The notes under the pieces were generated by a model. The model was not told where the DNA came from and did no database searches. It saw only the letters and a list, made by a program, of their open reading frames with translations. A program made the translations under genes and the position numbers. Positions 2,101-28,617 of a stretch of 64,000 nucleotides of DNA are shown piece by piece. This DNA comes from Gemmatimonadaceae bacterium (GTDB taxonomy: Bacteria > Gemmatimonadota > Gemmatimonadetes > Gemmatimonadales > Gemmatimonadaceae), in the NCBI GenBank assembly GCA_020851035.1, contig JADZDM010000025.1:248001-312000 (forward strand). The letters are read 5' to 3'. Position 1 is the first letter of the stretch. Every line of letters starts with the position of its first letter.

Positions 2101-3783
2101 ATGCGTCCCCTGACCATCCGTCGGCTCGTCGCCGCGTGCCTGGCCGTCGCCACGCCCGTCATCCTCGTCTCCTGCGCGAGTTTCTCCTCCCTTGGTCCGC
2201 GGCCGGTGCTGGCGGTGGTGAACGCCCGCATCTGGACCGGCGTCGAGGCGCGGCCGTGGGCGGAAGCGCTGGCGGTCGACAGCGCGGGCCGGATCACGGC
2301 GATCGGCAGCAGCCGGATGGTCGGCCAGCTTGGCGCGGGCACGGTGATCGATGCCAAGGGCCAGATGGTGGTGCCGGGGTTCGTGGACACACATGTCCAC
2401 TTCATCGAGGGGGGCTTCGGCCTGGCCTCGGTGCGGCTGCGTGACGCGCGCACGAAGGAGGAGTTCATCCGCCGCATCCGTGACCACGCGCGCACGCTGC
2501 CGAAGGGCGCCTGGGTCACCAACGGGGACTGGGACCACCAGAACTGGGGCGGCGAGCTGCCGCGGCGGGACTGGATCGACAGCGTGACACCCGACAACCC
2601 GGTGTGGATCAACCGGCTGGACGGTCACATGAACCTCGCCAACACGCTCACGCTGCAGGCCGCACGCCTCACGCGGGGCACCGCCGACGTGGCGGGGGGT
2701 GAGATCGTGCGCGACGCCGCCGGTGAGCTCACCGGCATCTTCAAGGACAATGCGCAGGACCTGGTGGCGGGAGCGATGCGGACCCCGCCGGTGGCGGTGG
2801 AGGACCGCGCACTGGACACGGCGATGGCCCACGTGGCGTCGTACGGCGTCACCAGCGTGCACAGCATGGGCAGCTGGCACGACCTCACCATCTTCCGGCG
2901 TGCGCACGGCACCGCGCGACAGCGCACGCGCATCTACGCCATGACACCACTGGCCGAGTGGACGCGGCTGCGCGACACCGTCGCCGTGCGCGGGCGGGGC
3001 GATGACTGGCTGCGCATCGGGGGCCTGAAAGGGTTCGTGGACGGTTCGCTCGGGTCGCACACGGCGGCGATGTTCGAAGACTTCACGGACAAGCCGGGCG
3101 ACCGCGGGCTGTTCGTGACGGCCCCCGAGTCACTATATGCTCGCGTGTCGGGGGCGGACCGTGCGGGGTTGCAGGTGATGGTGCACGCCATCGGTGACCG
3201 CGCCATCGCCACGCAGCTCGACATCTTCGCCCGCGTGGCGCGCGAGAACGGCGCGCGCGACCGGCGCTTCCGGATCGAGCATGCGCAGCACATCGCCGCG
3301 CGCGACTTCGGTCGGTTCAGGTCCCTTGGAGTGATCCCGTCGATGCAGCCGTACCATGCCATCGATGACGGCCGCTGGGCGGACCGGGTGATCGGCACCG
3401 ACCGGTCGTCGCGCACCTACGCGTTCAAGTCGCTGCTCGACGCCGGCGCGGCGGTGGCGTTCGGGTCGGACTGGTTCGTGGCCCCGCCGCGGCCGCTCGA
3501 GGCGATCTACGCCGCCGTGACGCGACGCACGCTGGACGACCGCACACCGGCCGGCTGGTACCCCGCGCAGAAGATCACCGTCGAGCAGGCGCTGCGCGCC
3601 CACACGCGGGGCGGGGCGTTCGCCGGCTTCGACGAGGCGAACCGCGGCACGCTGCAACTGGGCATGCTGGCCGACTTCGCCCTGCTCGAACGCGACATCA
3701 CCCGCATCCCGCCGGAGCAGATCCGCGACGTGCGCGTGATGCGCACGGTGGTGGGTGGCCGCACGGTGTTCGAGCGGAAGTAG
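2101..3783 (+). CDS. YtcJ-like amidohydrolase (family 3), exported lipoprotein
   Basis: A 560-residue metal-dependent amidohydrolase. The motifs follow the amidohydrolase-3 family: VPGFVDTHVHF carries the first metal HxH, KGFVDGSLGSHTA is the strand-5 region, VHAIGDRA and RIEHAQHI supply the later His ligands, and AFGSDWFVAPP supplies the final Asp. A C-terminal strand (MLADFALLERDITRIPPEQI) rejoins the small beta domain. The start at 2101 gives a lipoprotein signal ending ILVSC (Cys25). Family members hydrolyse N-substituted amides or formamides; the true substrate is unknown. It probably forms a two-gene unit with the preceding esterase. It ends close to the convergent decarboxylase gene, with only about 40 bases between the stops. 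Confidence 0.9.
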   Translation: MRPLTIRRLVAACLAVATPVILVSCASFSSLGPRPVLAVVNARIWTGVEARPWAEALAVDSAGRITAIGSSRMVGQLGAGTVIDAKGQMVVPGFVDTHVHFIEGGFGLASVRLRDARTKEEFIRRIRDHARTLPKGAWVTNGDWDHQNWGGELPRRDWIDSVTPDNPVWINRLDGHMNLANTLTLQAARLTRGTADVAGGEIVRDAAGELTGIFKDNAQDLVAGAMRTPPVAVEDRALDTAMAHVASYGVTSVHSMGSWHDLTIFRRAHGTARQRTRIYAMTPLAEWTRLRDTVAVRGRGDDWLRIGGLKGFVDGSLGSHTAAMFEDFTDKPGDRGLFVTAPESLYARVSGADRAGLQVMVHAIGDRAIATQLDIFARVARENGARDRRFRIEHAQHIAARDFGRFRSLGVIPSMQPYHAIDDGRWADRVIGTDRSSRTYAFKSLLDAGAAVAFGSDWFVAPPRPLEAIYAAVTRRTLDDRTPAGWYPAQKITVEQALRAHTRGGAFAGFDEANRGTLQLGMLADFALLERDITRIPPEQIRDVRVMRTVVGGRTVFERK

Positions 3784-7531: not shown

Positions 7532-9085
7532 ATGACACGCCTCCCGGTCCGCCTGCGGTTCCTGGCCGTCCTCACCCTCGTCGCCATGCCCGCGTTGCCG
7601 GCCCAGGTCCGCAGCACGGCGGCGCAGGTGCGCGAGCTCGATGCCGTCATCCGAAAGGGGGTGCGCGACTGGGAGATTCCCGGCCTCACCGTGACCGTGG
7701 TGCGGAACGACTCGGTGGTGTTCGCGCAGGGCTACGGTGTGCGGCGCCTGGGGGCAGCCGGTGCGGTGGACGTGCAGACGCAGTTCGGCATCATGAGCAC
7801 CACCAAGGCCTTCACCGCGCTGGCGATGGCGATGCTGGTGGACGAGGGCAAGGTGTCGTGGACCGACCCGATCACGAAGCACCTGCCGGAGTTCGCCTTC
7901 CAGGACCCGTTCCTGACCCGTGAGGCGACGGTGAAGGACCTGCTCACGCACAACATCGGGATGGGCAACGCCGACCTGATGTGGGCGCGTGGTGACCTCA
8001 CACGGGCCGAGATCCTCCGGCGCGTGCGGTACCTGCCGGCGGCCTATTCCCTGCGCGGCGGGTTCACCTACCAGAACGTGATGTACGGCGCGGCCGGCGA
8101 GCTGGTGGCGCGGGTGTCGGGGATGTCGTGGGAGGACTTCACCCGCACGCGCATCTTCGAGCCGCTCGGCATGTCGCAGTCGTACACGTCGTACGGTGCG
8201 ATGCGCGCGGCGGCCGGTGCGAACCAGTCGGAGCCACACTTCCGCCTGCGCGACACGATCCGGGTGATCGCCGACGAGGCGGTGGACGTGCTGCCGGCGG
8301 CGGGCGCGATCTGGTCGAATTCCACCGACATGGGGAAGTGGCTGCGCTTCCTGCTGGACAGCGGCCGCGTGGGCGGGAAGCGGCTGGTGAGCGAGGCGGG
8401 GTTCCGCGCGCTGCTCAAGCCGCAGTCGTTCGTGTCGGAGGCGGAGTTCTACCCCACGGCGCGGATCACGAAGCCGCACTGGATGACGTACGGGCTTGGC
8501 TGGTTCGAGCAGGACTATCGTGGCCGCTTCCTGGCGTTCCACACCGGCAGCCTGTCGGGTCGCACGGCGATCGTCGGGCTGTTGCCGGATGCGCGCACCG
8601 GCATCTTCATCGGCGGGAACCTGGACCACGCCGAGTTCCGGCACGCGCTGATGCTGCAGGCGCTGGACATCTTCGCCGGCACCAACGGCGGGGCGCCGCG
8701 CGACTGGAGTGCGGAGTTCCTGCCGCTCTACGCGGGGCTGGCGGCCGAGGGGAAGGCGGCACAGGCGGCGTTCGAGCAGAAGCGCGTGGCGGGCACGAAG
8801 CCGACGCTCCCGCTGGCTGCCTACGCCGGCACCTACGCGCACGCGGCGTGGGGCGACGTGGTCGTGACGCAGGAGGGTGACGCGCTGGCCGTGCGCATGG
8901 GCACCGATCCGCAGATGCGCGGACGGATGGAGCACTGGCACCAGGACACCTTCCGCGTGGCGCTCGGCGATGGGCGCGGTGGGTACAACTACCTCGTGTT
9001 CCGGCTGGGACTCGACGGGACGATGATCGAGCTGCGCCTCGACGGGGCTGACGAGTACACGTTCACACGTACCGCCCCCCGCTGA
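7532..9085 (+). CDS. Secreted serine hydrolase, class C beta-lactamase/esterase fold, with DUF3471 tail
   Basis: A 517-residue exported penicillin-binding-protein-like hydrolase. A signal peptide of about 23 residues ends PALPAQ. The catalytic SxxK is STTK at residues 89-92, the YxN is YQN in GGFTYQNVMYG, and the third motif is HTG (FHTGSLSG). The last ~90 residues (from LPLAAYAGTYAHAAWGD) match the DUF3471 beta-barrel domain that often follows this fold. Such proteins hydrolyse esters, D-amino-acid peptides or beta-lactams. The start at 7532 is chosen because it begins the signal peptide; the frame stays open upstream but overlaps the glycosylase gene. The stop lies inside a strong hairpin. 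Confidence 0.92.
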   Translation: MTRLPVRLRFLAVLTLVAMPALPAQVRSTAAQVRELDAVIRKGVRDWEIPGLTVTVVRNDSVVFAQGYGVRRLGAAGAVDVQTQFGIMSTTKAFTALAMAMLVDEGKVSWTDPITKHLPEFAFQDPFLTREATVKDLLTHNIGMGNADLMWARGDLTRAEILRRVRYLPAAYSLRGGFTYQNVMYGAAGELVARVSGMSWEDFTRTRIFEPLGMSQSYTSYGAMRAAAGANQSEPHFRLRDTIRVIADEAVDVLPAAGAIWSNSTDMGKWLRFLLDSGRVGGKRLVSEAGFRALLKPQSFVSEAEFYPTARITKPHWMTYGLGWFEQDYRGRFLAFHTGSLSGRTAIVGLLPDARTGIFIGGNLDHAEFRHALMLQALDIFAGTNGGAPRDWSAEFLPLYAGLAAEGKAAQAAFEQKRVAGTKPTLPLAAYAGTYAHAAWGDVVVTQEGDALAVRMGTDPQMRGRMEHWHQDTFRVALGDGRGGYNYLVFRLGLDGTMIELRLDGADEYTFTRTAPR

Positions 9086-24944: not shown

Positions 24945-25164
24945 CGGATTCCCCGGATGCCGGCGCGTACGCCGTCCGTCAGGAATGACAGCGCGTGGTG
25001 CATCATCATGGCCTCGGTGCTGGCGTGTCGAGCCATTCGGCATGGCGGGGGGGCTCGGACGACGCGACGGCGATCCCGTCGGTGCGGTCCGCTGCAGTGA
25101 CGGGACGATAGCTGCGGTGGCGCGGGCACTGTAGCCCCGCACCGTCGGGGAGGTGCCGGACCGG

Positions 25165-25950
25165 GTGCGTCCTGCCCAGCTTTGGGATGTGTCCGCCACC
25201 TCGACGCTCCCGCACCTCGTGCTCGAGGCACTTGCCTACTTCGTGGCCGGCCGGCTCTACTGGCGCGAACGGAGTGCGGGCCTGCAGCCGCCGGCGCGCG
25301 ACCGCTTCCTGCTGCTGGGGTGCGCGGTGTTCGGGGCCGCCGTGGGGTCGAAGGTGCTGCATGTGCTCGAACACCTGCCGGCGCTGCTGGCCCAGGACGA
25401 CACCCGGCTCTTCCTCGCGGGCAAGTCGGTGCTGGGCGGCTTCCTTGGCGGCACCGTGGCGGTGGAGGTGGGGAAGCGGCTGATCGACTGGCGCGTGCCG
25501 ACCGGCGATGCGTGGGTGGCGCCCATCACGGCGGGGCTCGTGATCGGGCGGATGGGCTGCCAGCTCTCGGGGCTCTGGGACCAGACGTACGGCACCGTCA
25601 CCACGCTGCCATGGGGCTGGGACTACGGGGATGGCCTGTCGCGGCACCCCGTCGCGCTGTACGAGATGCTCGCCGTTACGTTGCTGTTCGTGGCGATCCG
25701 GCGGCGGTGGACGGCCACCACGGGCGCGCGATTTGCAGCGCTGCTGCTCGGGTACTGCGTGCTGCGATTCGTGCTCGAGTTCCTCAAGCCGCCCTTCGGG
25801 CCGGTCGCGACCGGCACGCTGCCGGTGGCGCGCTACGCGGGGCTGACCGCGATCCAGTGGGCCGCGCTGGGTGGCGTGACGTGGTTTGTCTGGCTGTTCC
25901 GTGCGCGGCGTGCGGGTGCGCCGCTGCCTGCTGTGCTCCCTGCACCCTGA
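25165..25950 (+). CDS. Lgt-like integral membrane diacylglyceryl-transferase-family protein
   Basis: A 261-residue polytopic membrane protein, probably with seven transmembrane helices, matching the Lgt (prolipoprotein diacylglyceryl transferase) family. The recognisable elements are GLVIGRMGCQLSGLWDQTYG, corresponding to the Lgt GRxGNFxNGExxG segment, then SRHPVALYEML, matching HPxxLYE, and a final amphipathic GLTAIQW segment. The Asn-rich middle of the Lgt signature is changed to CQLSGL, so it may be a paralogue with another acceptor rather than housekeeping Lgt. True Lgt moves diacylglyceryl from phosphatidylglycerol onto the lipobox Cys. The GTG at 25165 is chosen because GGGGAGG overlaps the earlier GTG at 25153. 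Its stop is three bases before the radical SAM gene. Confidence 0.82.
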   Translation: MRPAQLWDVSATSTLPHLVLEALAYFVAGRLYWRERSAGLQPPARDRFLLLGCAVFGAAVGSKVLHVLEHLPALLAQDDTRLFLAGKSVLGGFLGGTVAVEVGKRLIDWRVPTGDAWVAPITAGLVIGRMGCQLSGLWDQTYGTVTTLPWGWDYGDGLSRHPVALYEMLAVTLLFVAIRRRWTATTGARFAALLLGYCVLRFVLEFLKPPFGPVATGTLPVARYAGLTAIQWAALGGVTWFVWLFRARRAGAPLPAVLPAP

Positions 25951-25953
25951 CCG

Positions 25954-27387
25954 ATGCCCCGGACCCGGCCGTTCCTGTACTACGACCAGGTGGTGTCGCT
26001 CTGCGATCACTGCCTGCGGCGCATCGAGGGCAAGCTCGTCATCCGTGACGGTGCGGTGTGGATGCACAAGTGGTGTCCGGCGCACGGGCACGCGAAGGTG
26101 CTGGTGGCGTCGGACGAGAAGTTCTGGCGGCTGGGACGCGAGGTGTACATGAAGCCGCCCGAGATGCCGGAGCGCTTCAACACCCCGATGGCGTGGGGCT
26201 GTCCGTACGACTGCGGGCTCTGTCCCGACCACATGCAGCACTCCTGCCTCACCATCCTCGAGGTCACGGACCACTGCAACCTGTCGTGCCCCGTGTGTTA
26301 TGCGGCCAGCGGCCCGCACCGCACGGAGCGGCGCGACCTGGCGACGATCGAGCGGATGCTGGACGCGATCGTGGCCAACGAGGGGACGCCCGACGTGGTG
26401 CAGATCTCCGGCGGCGAGCCGACCACGCACCCGGACTTCTTCGCGATCCTCGATGCCGCGAAGCGGCGCCCGATCCACCACCTGATGCTGAACACCAACG
26501 GCATCCGCATCGCGACCGAACCGGGGTTCGCGGAGCGGCTGGCGACGTATGCGCCGGGATTCGAGGTGTACCTGCAGTTCGACTCGCTGCAGCGTGACGC
26601 GCTGATGACGCTGCGCGGGGCCGACCTGCGCCGCATCCGCGAGGATGCCGTGGCCGCCCTGGACCGGGTGGGGCTTTCCACCACGCTGGTGATGACCGTG
26701 GCCGCCGGCGTGAACGACCAGGAGATCGGCGACGTGGTGCAGTGGGCCACGCAGCATCCGTGCATCCGGGGCGTCACGCTGCAGCCGATCCAGTTCGCCG
26801 GCCGGCTGGACGGCGTGCCGGGCACCACCGCGCGGCTGACGCTGACGGAGGTGCGCCAGCGCCTGCTCGACCAGTGTCCGATCTTCCAGCCCGACGACGT
26901 GATCCCGGTGCCGTGCAACGCCGATGCGCTGGCGATGGGCTACGCCCTGCGCACGCCGGCGGGCATCGTGCCCCTCACGCGCTTCCTGCCCCCCGAGGTG
27001 CTGCTGGCGGGCGACCGCAACACGATCGTCTTCGAGCAGGACCCGGCGCTCAAGGACCAGGTGTTCCGGCTCTTCGCCACCAACCACTCGCCGGAGTCGC
27101 AGGCGACGCACCTCGCCTCACTGCTCTGCTGCCTGCCGGCGGTGGACGCGCCGGGCATCGGCTACGACAGCGTCTTCCGCGTGCTGATCATGGCCTTCAT
27201 GGACGCGACGGCGTTCGACGTGCGCGCGATGAAGAAGAGCTGCGTCCACATCGTGCAGCCGGACGGGCGGATCATTCCCTTCGAGTCGTTCAACCTGCTG
27301 TACCGCGACGACCGGCGCGCATTGCTGGCCGAGCGGCGTGGCGAGGTGGAGGCACTGTACCAGGTGACACCGCGGAGCCCGTCGTGA
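25954..27387 (+). CDS. Radical SAM enzyme of the tetraether lipid synthase (MJ0619/Tes)-like family
   Basis: A 477-residue Fe-S enzyme. The radical SAM cluster is C108-x3-C112-x2-C115 in DHCNLSCPVCYA, and the SAM-binding GGEPT follows at residue 153. Upstream lies a second Cys block, GCPYDCGLCPDHMQHSC (Cys83, 87, 90, 98), and a zinc-ribbon or rubredoxin-like site (C17-x2-C20 and CPAHG at Cys41). Near the C-terminus is CVHIVQPDGRIIPFESFN. This set, two metal sites before the SAM core plus the C-terminal block, is as I recall it for archaeal MJ0619/Tes, which joins lipid tails to make tetraethers and was earlier annotated as a pterin methyltransferase. In this bacterium the substrate is inferred, not shown. 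It sits between an Lgt-like gene and a membrane-protein gene whose start overlaps its stop. Confidence 0.82.
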   Translation: MPRTRPFLYYDQVVSLCDHCLRRIEGKLVIRDGAVWMHKWCPAHGHAKVLVASDEKFWRLGREVYMKPPEMPERFNTPMAWGCPYDCGLCPDHMQHSCLTILEVTDHCNLSCPVCYAASGPHRTERRDLATIERMLDAIVANEGTPDVVQISGGEPTTHPDFFAILDAAKRRPIHHLMLNTNGIRIATEPGFAERLATYAPGFEVYLQFDSLQRDALMTLRGADLRRIREDAVAALDRVGLSTTLVMTVAAGVNDQEIGDVVQWATQHPCIRGVTLQPIQFAGRLDGVPGTTARLTLTEVRQRLLDQCPIFQPDDVIPVPCNADALAMGYALRTPAGIVPLTRFLPPEVLLAGDRNTIVFEQDPALKDQVFRLFATNHSPESQATHLASLLCCLPAVDAPGIGYDSVFRVLIMAFMDATAFDVRAMKKSCVHIVQPDGRIIPFESFNLLYRDDRRALLAERRGEVEALYQVTPRSPS

Positions 27388-27647
27388 AGCGGATCCTGGT
27401 GGGGATCGCCCTGTTCATCACCGGTGCGATCGGGCTCGTGCTCTCGTTCTGCGGCGCGATGTTCATGGAGTACGCCAGCAAGCACGGTGGCACCGGCAAC
27501 GGGGACTTCGCGACGGCGGCCACGGTGACCGGGGTGGGCGCGCTGCTGGTGTTCGGCGTGATCGCGTACGTCGTGCGACGGGTGCGGCGCTCGCGCGCAC
27601 CGCGCGTGATGACCGGCAGCATCCGCTCCACCGACGAACTGCCGTGA
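27384..27647 (+). CDS. Small two-helix membrane protein
   Basis: An 87-residue protein I do not recognise. It has two hydrophobic helices (ILVGIALFITGAIGLVLSF and TGVGALLVFGVIAYVV) joined by a short Gly-rich loop, then a basic stop-transfer stretch (RRVRRSRAPR) that puts the C-terminus in the cytoplasm. Its GTG start overlaps the radical SAM stop as GTGA, so it is translationally coupled to that enzyme and may tether or assist it at the membrane. The methyltransferase gene follows after 13 bases. Confidence 0.65.
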   Translation: MKRILVGIALFITGAIGLVLSFCGAMFMEYASKHGGTGNGDFATAATVTGVGALLVFGVIAYVVRRVRRSRAPRVMTGSIRSTDELP

Positions 27648-27660
27648 CACGCGTGACGCC

Positions 27661-28617
27661 GTGACGGCAGGGGCCCTGTTCGCCCCGTTCCTCGCCGCGC
27701 GCGGCGTGGTGATCGTGGATGGCGCGCTGGCCACGGAACTGGAGCGTCGCGGTGCCGATCTCTCAGACGCGCTCTGGTCGGCGCGGGTGCTGCTGGAACA
27801 GCCGGCGCTGATCCGCGCCGTGCACGACGACTACGTCGCGGCCGGGGCCGACATCGCGATCACGTCCACGTACCAGGCCACCTTCGAGGGGCTGGGGCGG
27901 CGGGGGCTGGATGCCGGCGCCGCCGCCGCGCTGATGCGGCGCGCGGTGCAGCTCGCCGTCGAGTCGCGCGACGCCTTCTGGGCGGTGGCGGCGAACCGCA
28001 CGGGACGTGCACGTCCGCTGGTGGCGGCGTCGGTGGGTCCGTATGGCGCCTTCCTCGCCGACGGGTCGGAGTACCGCGGCGACTACGCCCTCGACGAGGA
28101 GGGACTGGTCGAGTGGCACCGGGCACGCTTCCACCTGCTGGCGTCATCGGGGGCCGACCTGCTGGCGTGCGAGACGATCCCGTGTGCGGCCGAGGCGCGC
28201 GCCCTGCGCCGGCTGCTGCACGAGGTGCCCGGGGTGCAGGCCTGGTTCAGCTTCACGGCGCAGGATGGCGCACGCCTGCCGAGCGGCGAACGCTTCGCCG
28301 AGGTGGTGGCGGAGTGCGACGGTGACCCGCAGGTGGCGGCGGTGGGGATCAACTGCACGGCGCCCGCGCATGTGGAGTCACTCGTGCGCGCGGCCCGCGC
28401 GGTGACGGCCACCCCGATCCTCGTCTATCCGAACTCCGGCGAGTGCTGGCTGGCGGCCGAGCGTCGCTGGACGGCGGATCGCGACGGCCTCTCGCTGGCC
28501 AGTGGCGCGCCGGTCTGGCGTGACGCCGGGGCGACGATCTTCGGCGGCTGCTGTCGCACGACACCGGCAGACATCGCGGCGCTGGTGCGCGAACTCACCG
28601 CCGAGCGTGGCGCCTGA
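27661..28617 (+). CDS. mmuM: Homocysteine S-methyltransferase
   Basis: A 318-residue zinc-dependent methyltransferase that makes methionine from homocysteine with S-methylmethionine or SAM as donor. The zinc ligands are visible as GINCTAP and the pair in GGCCRTTP; GSEYRGDYA and TSTYQATFEG are characteristic family segments. The start is GTG. It is the last gene of the four-gene operon. In that context it could recycle methyl donor or product (SAM-derived homocysteine) used by the radical SAM enzyme, but it also works as a stand-alone housekeeping enzyme elsewhere, so the link is inferred from position only. Confidence 0.9.
   Translation: MTAGALFAPFLAARGVVIVDGALATELERRGADLSDALWSARVLLEQPALIRAVHDDYVAAGADIAITSTYQATFEGLGRRGLDAGAAAALMRRAVQLAVESRDAFWAVAANRTGRARPLVAASVGPYGAFLADGSEYRGDYALDEEGLVEWHRARFHLLASSGADLLACETIPCAAEARALRRLLHEVPGVQAWFSFTAQDGARLPSGERFAEVVAECDGDPQVAAVGINCTAPAHVESLVRAARAVTATPILVYPNSGECWLAAERRWTADRDGLSLASGAPVWRDAGATIFGGCCRTTPADIAALVRELTAERGA

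Follow-up and report, generated by a model that had tools for sequence, protein, structure and literature searches.

The radical SAM protein encoded at positions 25954..27387 (+ strand; 477 aa) of the window, i.e., the entire 64,000-nucleotide stretch of Gemmatimonadaceae DNA that was analyzed, is, judged from profile matches and its predicted structure, a bacterial enzyme with the fold of Tes, the archaeal tetraether lipid synthase that couples lipid tails, but not Tes proper. It is paired with a divergent membrane protein having the fold of Lgt, the prolipoprotein diacylglyceryl transferase, and, on the grounds of the predicted fold, the conserved sites, the altered C-terminal site and the gene pairing, we moderately favor the view that the two genes constitute a module which modifies the tails of membrane lipids. 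The two extra N-terminal metal sites, which a sequence-only reading of this DNA had singled out, are real, yet they are already known from the solved Tes structure; what looks new here is a rebuilt third metal site together with a near-constant Lgt-related membrane partner.

The best-scoring NCBIfam models for the radical SAM protein are TrsS (NF045646; 314.3 bits, aligned over residues 13-453) followed by Tes (NF045702; 251.9 bits), both of which remain under their curated cut-offs of 490 and 450 bits, respectively. Matches are also seen to the Pfam models PF04055 (80.1 bits against a gathering threshold of 29.5), with the radical SAM CX3CX2C motif present, and PF23545, an N-terminal metal-ribbon domain. 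The sole strong relative of solved structure is the M. jannaschii Tes/GDGT-MAS (MJ0619; 7tol, 7tom), with 7tol being recovered at E values of 6e-59 using the single sequence and 4e-82 using a profile. The AlphaFold2 model (mean pLDDT 81, pTM 0.85) matches 7tom with a Z score of 39.9 over 413 residues (3.2 Å, 28% identity), the next match being MoaA at Z 19.2; confidence drops to a pLDDT of about 60 in the N-auxiliary block (residues 81-100) and in the CC loop. In the whole-length fold, the rubredoxin-like C-x2-C-x20-C-x2-H motif, the three cysteines plus histidine of the second site, the radical SAM motif and the presence of the C-terminal domain, the window protein resembles Tes; it differs in having no Cys at 325, 429 and 444, in its pattern of Cys98, C321, C393 and C430, in its bacterial host and in its Lgt partner. 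The Tes score and the missing C-terminal cysteines rule out a canonical Tes, and a canonical TrsS is ruled out by scores below the cut-off, for the window protein as well as for every one of the 75 positive genomes, which come from two phyla.

A survey and phylogenetic tree of 100 family members place the window protein in a clade of 70 members (clade a; support 100), with a sister clade of six (clade b) and, outside these, a clade of 11 (clade c) and 12 Tes-like sequences. L005 forms a very long branch and its placement is unsure. Both it and L017, which belong to the same family as the window's genome, have a divergent radical SAM homolog adjoining an Lgt-like gene; in this homolog C83/C87/C90 are lost, the HPHC and PC cysteines are kept and there is a repeat-like C-terminal insertion. 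Among the genomes of L096-L107, L134 and L136, several encode between two and four related paralogs of the radical SAM protein, partly arranged in tandem; their C-terminal pattern is a different one (PSC...KCC...PGC), and the flanks examined contain no Lgt. Further, the sequence labeled 'Methylotenera' (L037) is nearly identical to that of Roseateles puraquae (L038), and one labeled 'proteobacterium' (L030) is identical to L081, in a genome from the phylum of L040; both pairs probably reflect mis-binned or differently named MAGs. In Frateuria defendens (L049), an apparent frameshift at about 7705-7737, due to either mutation or sequencing error, splits the radical SAM gene.

Inspection of the translation recovers every cysteine that the sequence-only reading had listed, namely 17, 20 and 41 (the last in CPAHG), 83, 87, 90 and 98, and the C108-x3-C112-x2-C115 cluster. 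In an alignment of the window protein with 30 homologs of 53-81% identity from Gemmatimonadota, Pseudomonadota, Myxococcota and Planctomycetota, C17, C20, C41, H44, C83, C87, C90, H93, C98, C108, C112 and C115 are all invariant (31/31), and the same N-terminal residues are nearly so across the 70 clade members, which excludes poor conservation in close homologs. Tes has four metallocofactors: a rubredoxin-type mononuclear iron (C9X2C12X20C33X2H36), an [Fe4S4]N cluster bound by C73/C77/C80 and a histidine, the RS cluster, and an [Fe4S4]C cluster with a labile Met439 (PMC9433317). In the alignment, the ligands of the first two of these sites have one-to-one counterparts in C17/C20/C41/H44 and C83/C87/C90/H93 of the window protein. 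The rubredoxin-like site, C17-x2-C20-x20-C41-x2-H44 (26002..26085, + strand), reproduces the Tes spacing exactly, its cysteines being invariant in both sets (31/31 and 70/70) and His44 in 31/31 and 69/70. The putative N-auxiliary [4Fe-4S] site, C83-x3-C87-x2-C90 with His93 (26200..26232, +), is invariant in 70/70, and the radical SAM CX3CX2C motif itself (C108/C112/C115; 26275..26298, +) is evident from the translation, Pfam and the alignment. Homology to the Tes structure, through these same motifs, supports the earlier proposal of a rubredoxin-like iron and an auxiliary Fe-S cluster, and the Tes alignment points to His44 and His93 as the probable fourth ligands of the two sites. That the cysteines of each site lie close together in space, which that proposal entailed, finds its support in the homologous Tes crystal structure, the predicted model being weak in the block (pLDDT about 60).

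Other elements of the sequence-only reading need revision. It had placed Cys98 (26245..26247, +) in a four-Cys N-terminal block, but a role of this residue as the fourth ligand is disfavored: Cys98 is present in 87/87 sequences on the TrsS side and in 0/12 Tes-like ones, and L005 keeps it though C83/C87/C90 are lost. Because the position is occupied by Ala or Ser in 12/12 Tes-like sequences, Cys98 is probably not a cluster ligand. The number of metal ligands, described as unusual, is indeed so among radical SAM enzymes as a whole, yet such a set is the hallmark already known for the Tes/TrsS family. Likewise, the idea that the N-terminal sites might hold a substrate carbon was misplaced, since in Tes it is the C-terminal cluster that does so, through a carbon-sulfur intermediate, and both N-terminal sites lie at the protein surface without an assigned role (PMC9433317).

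Beyond the residues noted in that reading, the alignments reveal a conserved C-terminal set comprising C321, C392/C393, C430 and an acidic residue at 444, which delineates a remodeled site in the window protein (C321, C392-C393, S429-C430, E444; 26914..27285, +). Positions 325, 429 and 444 are Cys in 29/29 members of the three other groups, a conservation which suggests that they carry the Tes C-terminal cluster. The window protein instead displays Ala325, Ser429 and Glu444; in its clade, position 444 is Asp or Glu in 70/70, 429 is Ser or Thr in 67/70 and 325 is variable (Thr, Ala, Cys, Ser, Gly, Asn). All 70 members have both C321 and C430, and C393 is found in 65/65 of those outside a subclade associated with DUF547 as opposed to 0/5 within it. 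The equivalent of Tes Met439 is Met413 in the window, with clade a showing Met in 31 sequences, Val in 32 and another residue in two. This pattern of replacement suggests that the C-terminal site has been retained, with different residues as its ligands. As the lost Tes-type cysteines are the presumed holders of the coupling cluster, Tes chemistry may be impossible for these proteins.

The equivalent stretch takes the form of a CC-x4-C loop in the sister clade. The otherwise intact radical SAM gene of L114 (about 1477-2844) has an in-frame TGA at codon 385, matching the last Cys of its nearest relative L109 (GESU versus GESC), and its genome encodes SelB above the curated cut-off. On account of the TGA at this Cys position and the SelB gene, the L114 protein is likely a selenoprotein that falls outside the curated TrsS model; neither a SECIS element nor a tRNA was found for L114 by Rfam and ARAGORN. 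The L114 TGA fits the description of TrsS as a '(seleno)protein' and suggests a role for the loop thiol in redox chemistry or in metal binding. The radical SAM gene of the window (25954-27387) has no in-frame TGA ahead of its stop codon.

The partner gene (25153..25950, +; 265 aa, with a possible alternative GTG start at 25189) has its stop 3 bp before the ATG of the radical SAM gene. Its product is recognized as a divergent Lgt-fold membrane protein by PF01790 (70.5 bits against a gathering threshold of 24.9), by profile comparison with the E. coli Lgt 5azb (E 2e-16) and by a structural model that matches 5azb with Z 11.1 over 225 residues, 5azb being the only structure clearly above GPCR-like helical bundles. 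It does not reach the Lgt equivalog TIGR00544 (32.7 bits against a cut-off of 118.9), and its own genome encodes a separate, ordinary Lgt (224.8 bits), which would leave the paralog free for another task. Residue roles are known from the mutagenesis of E. coli Lgt (PMC4728403) and allow a comparison. The paralog shares with Lgt the PF01790 domain, the fold and the equivalents of R143, R239 and Y235, with the two lipid-site arginines (R133 and R205 in the window) being invariant in 24/24 paralogs. It departs from Lgt in lacking the E151 pattern and the essential H103, for which a His is found in 0/24 paralogs (Leu94 in the window), and in replacing N146 by Cys136 in 24/24. Given the missing H103 equivalent and the change of N146 to Cys136, ordinary prolipoprotein modification would not be expected of the paralog.

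An Lgt-like gene occurs near the radical SAM gene in 56/66 clade-a loci and 5/6 clade-b loci, 52 of them within 150 bp, with placements that vary between upstream and downstream and between same-strand and divergent; no Lgt-like neighbor was found at the 23 Tes-like and clade-c loci. The contrast (61/77 versus 0/23) gives a Fisher p of 1.5e-12, with the DUF547 subclade included among the loci without Lgt and the relatedness of the loci ignored. The flanks examined are short at many loci (about 1.5 kb), and contig ends lie close to several of the ten exceptions in clade a; the Methylococcaceae locus L043, where no Lgt was found over 7 kb upstream or 3.5 kb downstream, is a true exception. In a subclade of five loci (L045, L046, L047, L095, L133), DUF547 and a DVU_1556-like methyltransferase stand in place of Lgt, and C392/C393 are also absent.

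Additional lipid enzymes adjoin the pair in particular lineages, i.e., an MFS/acyltransferase fusion in Burkholderiales, a fatty-acid hydroxylase in Archangium, and a cyclopropane synthase-DUF1365-DUF2878 cluster in L156; being lineage-local, these could be incidental. In the window, a gene for a small protein of 87 aa with two TM segments (27384..27647, +) overlaps the radical SAM stop in a GTGA, and L024 has a small two-TM ORF at the same place with the same 4-bp overlap. A family of small proteins with a GLCG motif is strongly represented beside the pair in L024 and Burkholderiales; the window ORF matches it at E 0.19 when the window and L024 are left out, which is marginal by sequence alone, and it is a probable, though weak, member. 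Two-TM proteins with G-x-G-LCG adjoin the pair, sometimes in tandem, at 3101-3328 and 3345-3566 in L024 and at 5747-6270 in L026, and no strong Pfam family was found for such small two-TM proteins. A small two-TM protein as a general third component of the system is partly supported. The downstream homocysteine S-methyltransferase of the window (27661-28617) was rejected as a conserved partner, as it occurs in no other locus.

A lipid-modifying function is favored because of the Tes fold, the invariant N-terminal ligands, the Lgt-like neighbor and the lipid enzymes beside the pair. Under this proposal, the arginines R133 and R205 of the Lgt paralog would bind a lipid such as phosphatidylglycerol, and the paralog would supply or further process the lipid substrate. 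The RS cluster would generate a 5'-deoxyadenosyl radical that abstracts hydrogen from a saturated lipid tail, with electrons perhaps being relayed by the N-terminal sites at the protein surface. The resulting tail radical could then be captured at the C-terminal site, where C321, C393, C430 and Asp/Glu444 would replace the Tes ligand pattern. Its fate is the least certain step, with C-C coupling, C-S bond formation or some other outcome being conceivable, and the product would be a modified membrane lipid. More speculatively, one might envisage a widespread, hitherto undescribed bacterial lipid pathway, for which we would claim rather low confidence, in which the Tes-fold enzyme functionalizes a phospholipid tail, possibly by inserting cluster sulfur (compare the S-lipid intermediate of Tes), and the Lgt-fold partner transfers diacylglyceryl to the new thiol or to another small acceptor, giving a novel class of modified or membrane-spanning lipids.

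These proposals have to be weighed against others. The window protein could in principle be a genuine synthase of the Tes/Mss type, which joins two tails into membrane-spanning lipids using a C-terminal cluster re-ligated by C321, C393, C430 and Asp/Glu444. The Tes fold of the predicted model and the three cysteines and one carboxylate that the Lgt-associated clade keeps without exception at its C-terminal site are consistent with such an enzyme, as are the proposal by previous authors that bacterial Tes homologs function in brGDGT synthesis (PMC8941075) and the action of Mss on ordinary ester lipids (PMC13274423). However, Mss and the bacterial Tes homologs (of brGDGT and diabolic-acid lipids), while of the same superfamily and represented in the window's own phylum by the L006-L011 group, belong to a separate clade; the L006-L011 loci keep the Tes-type C-terminal cysteines and have no Lgt in the flanks examined. 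In the window's clade those cysteines at 325, 429 and 444 are gone, the Met439 position is variable, and the window's Tes score is 252 against the cut-off of 450. Moreover, most carriers are aerobic mesophiles, from which membrane-spanning lipids are not known. Taken together, this makes a true tail-joining synthase unlikely.

We consider it equally doubtful that the protein belongs to the TrsS seleno-radical-SAM system, as a redox enzyme with a Cys/Sec loop and perhaps a non-lipid substrate, for which the Lgt-like protein would be a scaffold or membrane anchor. TrsS is the top NCBIfam match, the sister clade has the CC-x4-C/U loop, in which L114 carries its TGA along with SelB in the genome, and DUF547 and the DVU_1556-like methyltransferase replace Lgt in one subclade. 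Against this, the window scores 314 rather than 490 bits, 0/75 positive genomes exceed the cut-off, and the window has neither a Sec codon nor TrsS-type neighbors, with the lipid-type neighbors instead favoring a lipid. Finally, the Lgt adjacency might be incidental synteny, with the radical SAM protein acting alone, as could be argued from the ten clade-a loci and all DUF547-type loci lacking Lgt in the stretch examined; yet the pairing is seen in four relative arrangements and four phyla, is often stop/start coupled, and occurs at 0/23 outgroup loci, which renders this explanation decidedly improbable.

Bacterial Tes homologs, which have been tentatively assigned to brGDGT synthesis (PMC8941075), occur in organisms from which such lipids are not known, and their role was raised as a question by the authors concerned (PMC9433317, PMC8941075). 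A partial literature search found no paper that treats Lgt, radical SAM and tetraether together. The radical SAM/Lgt pairing described here points to an undescribed bacterial lipid modification, and the conserved Lgt-fold partner offers a concrete lead on the role of the bacterial Tes homologs. It also has a bearing on which bacterial genes count as evidence for the membrane-spanning lipids used in paleoclimate studies. Further, the radical SAM/Lgt clade would illustrate a way in which this family can rebuild its third metal site.
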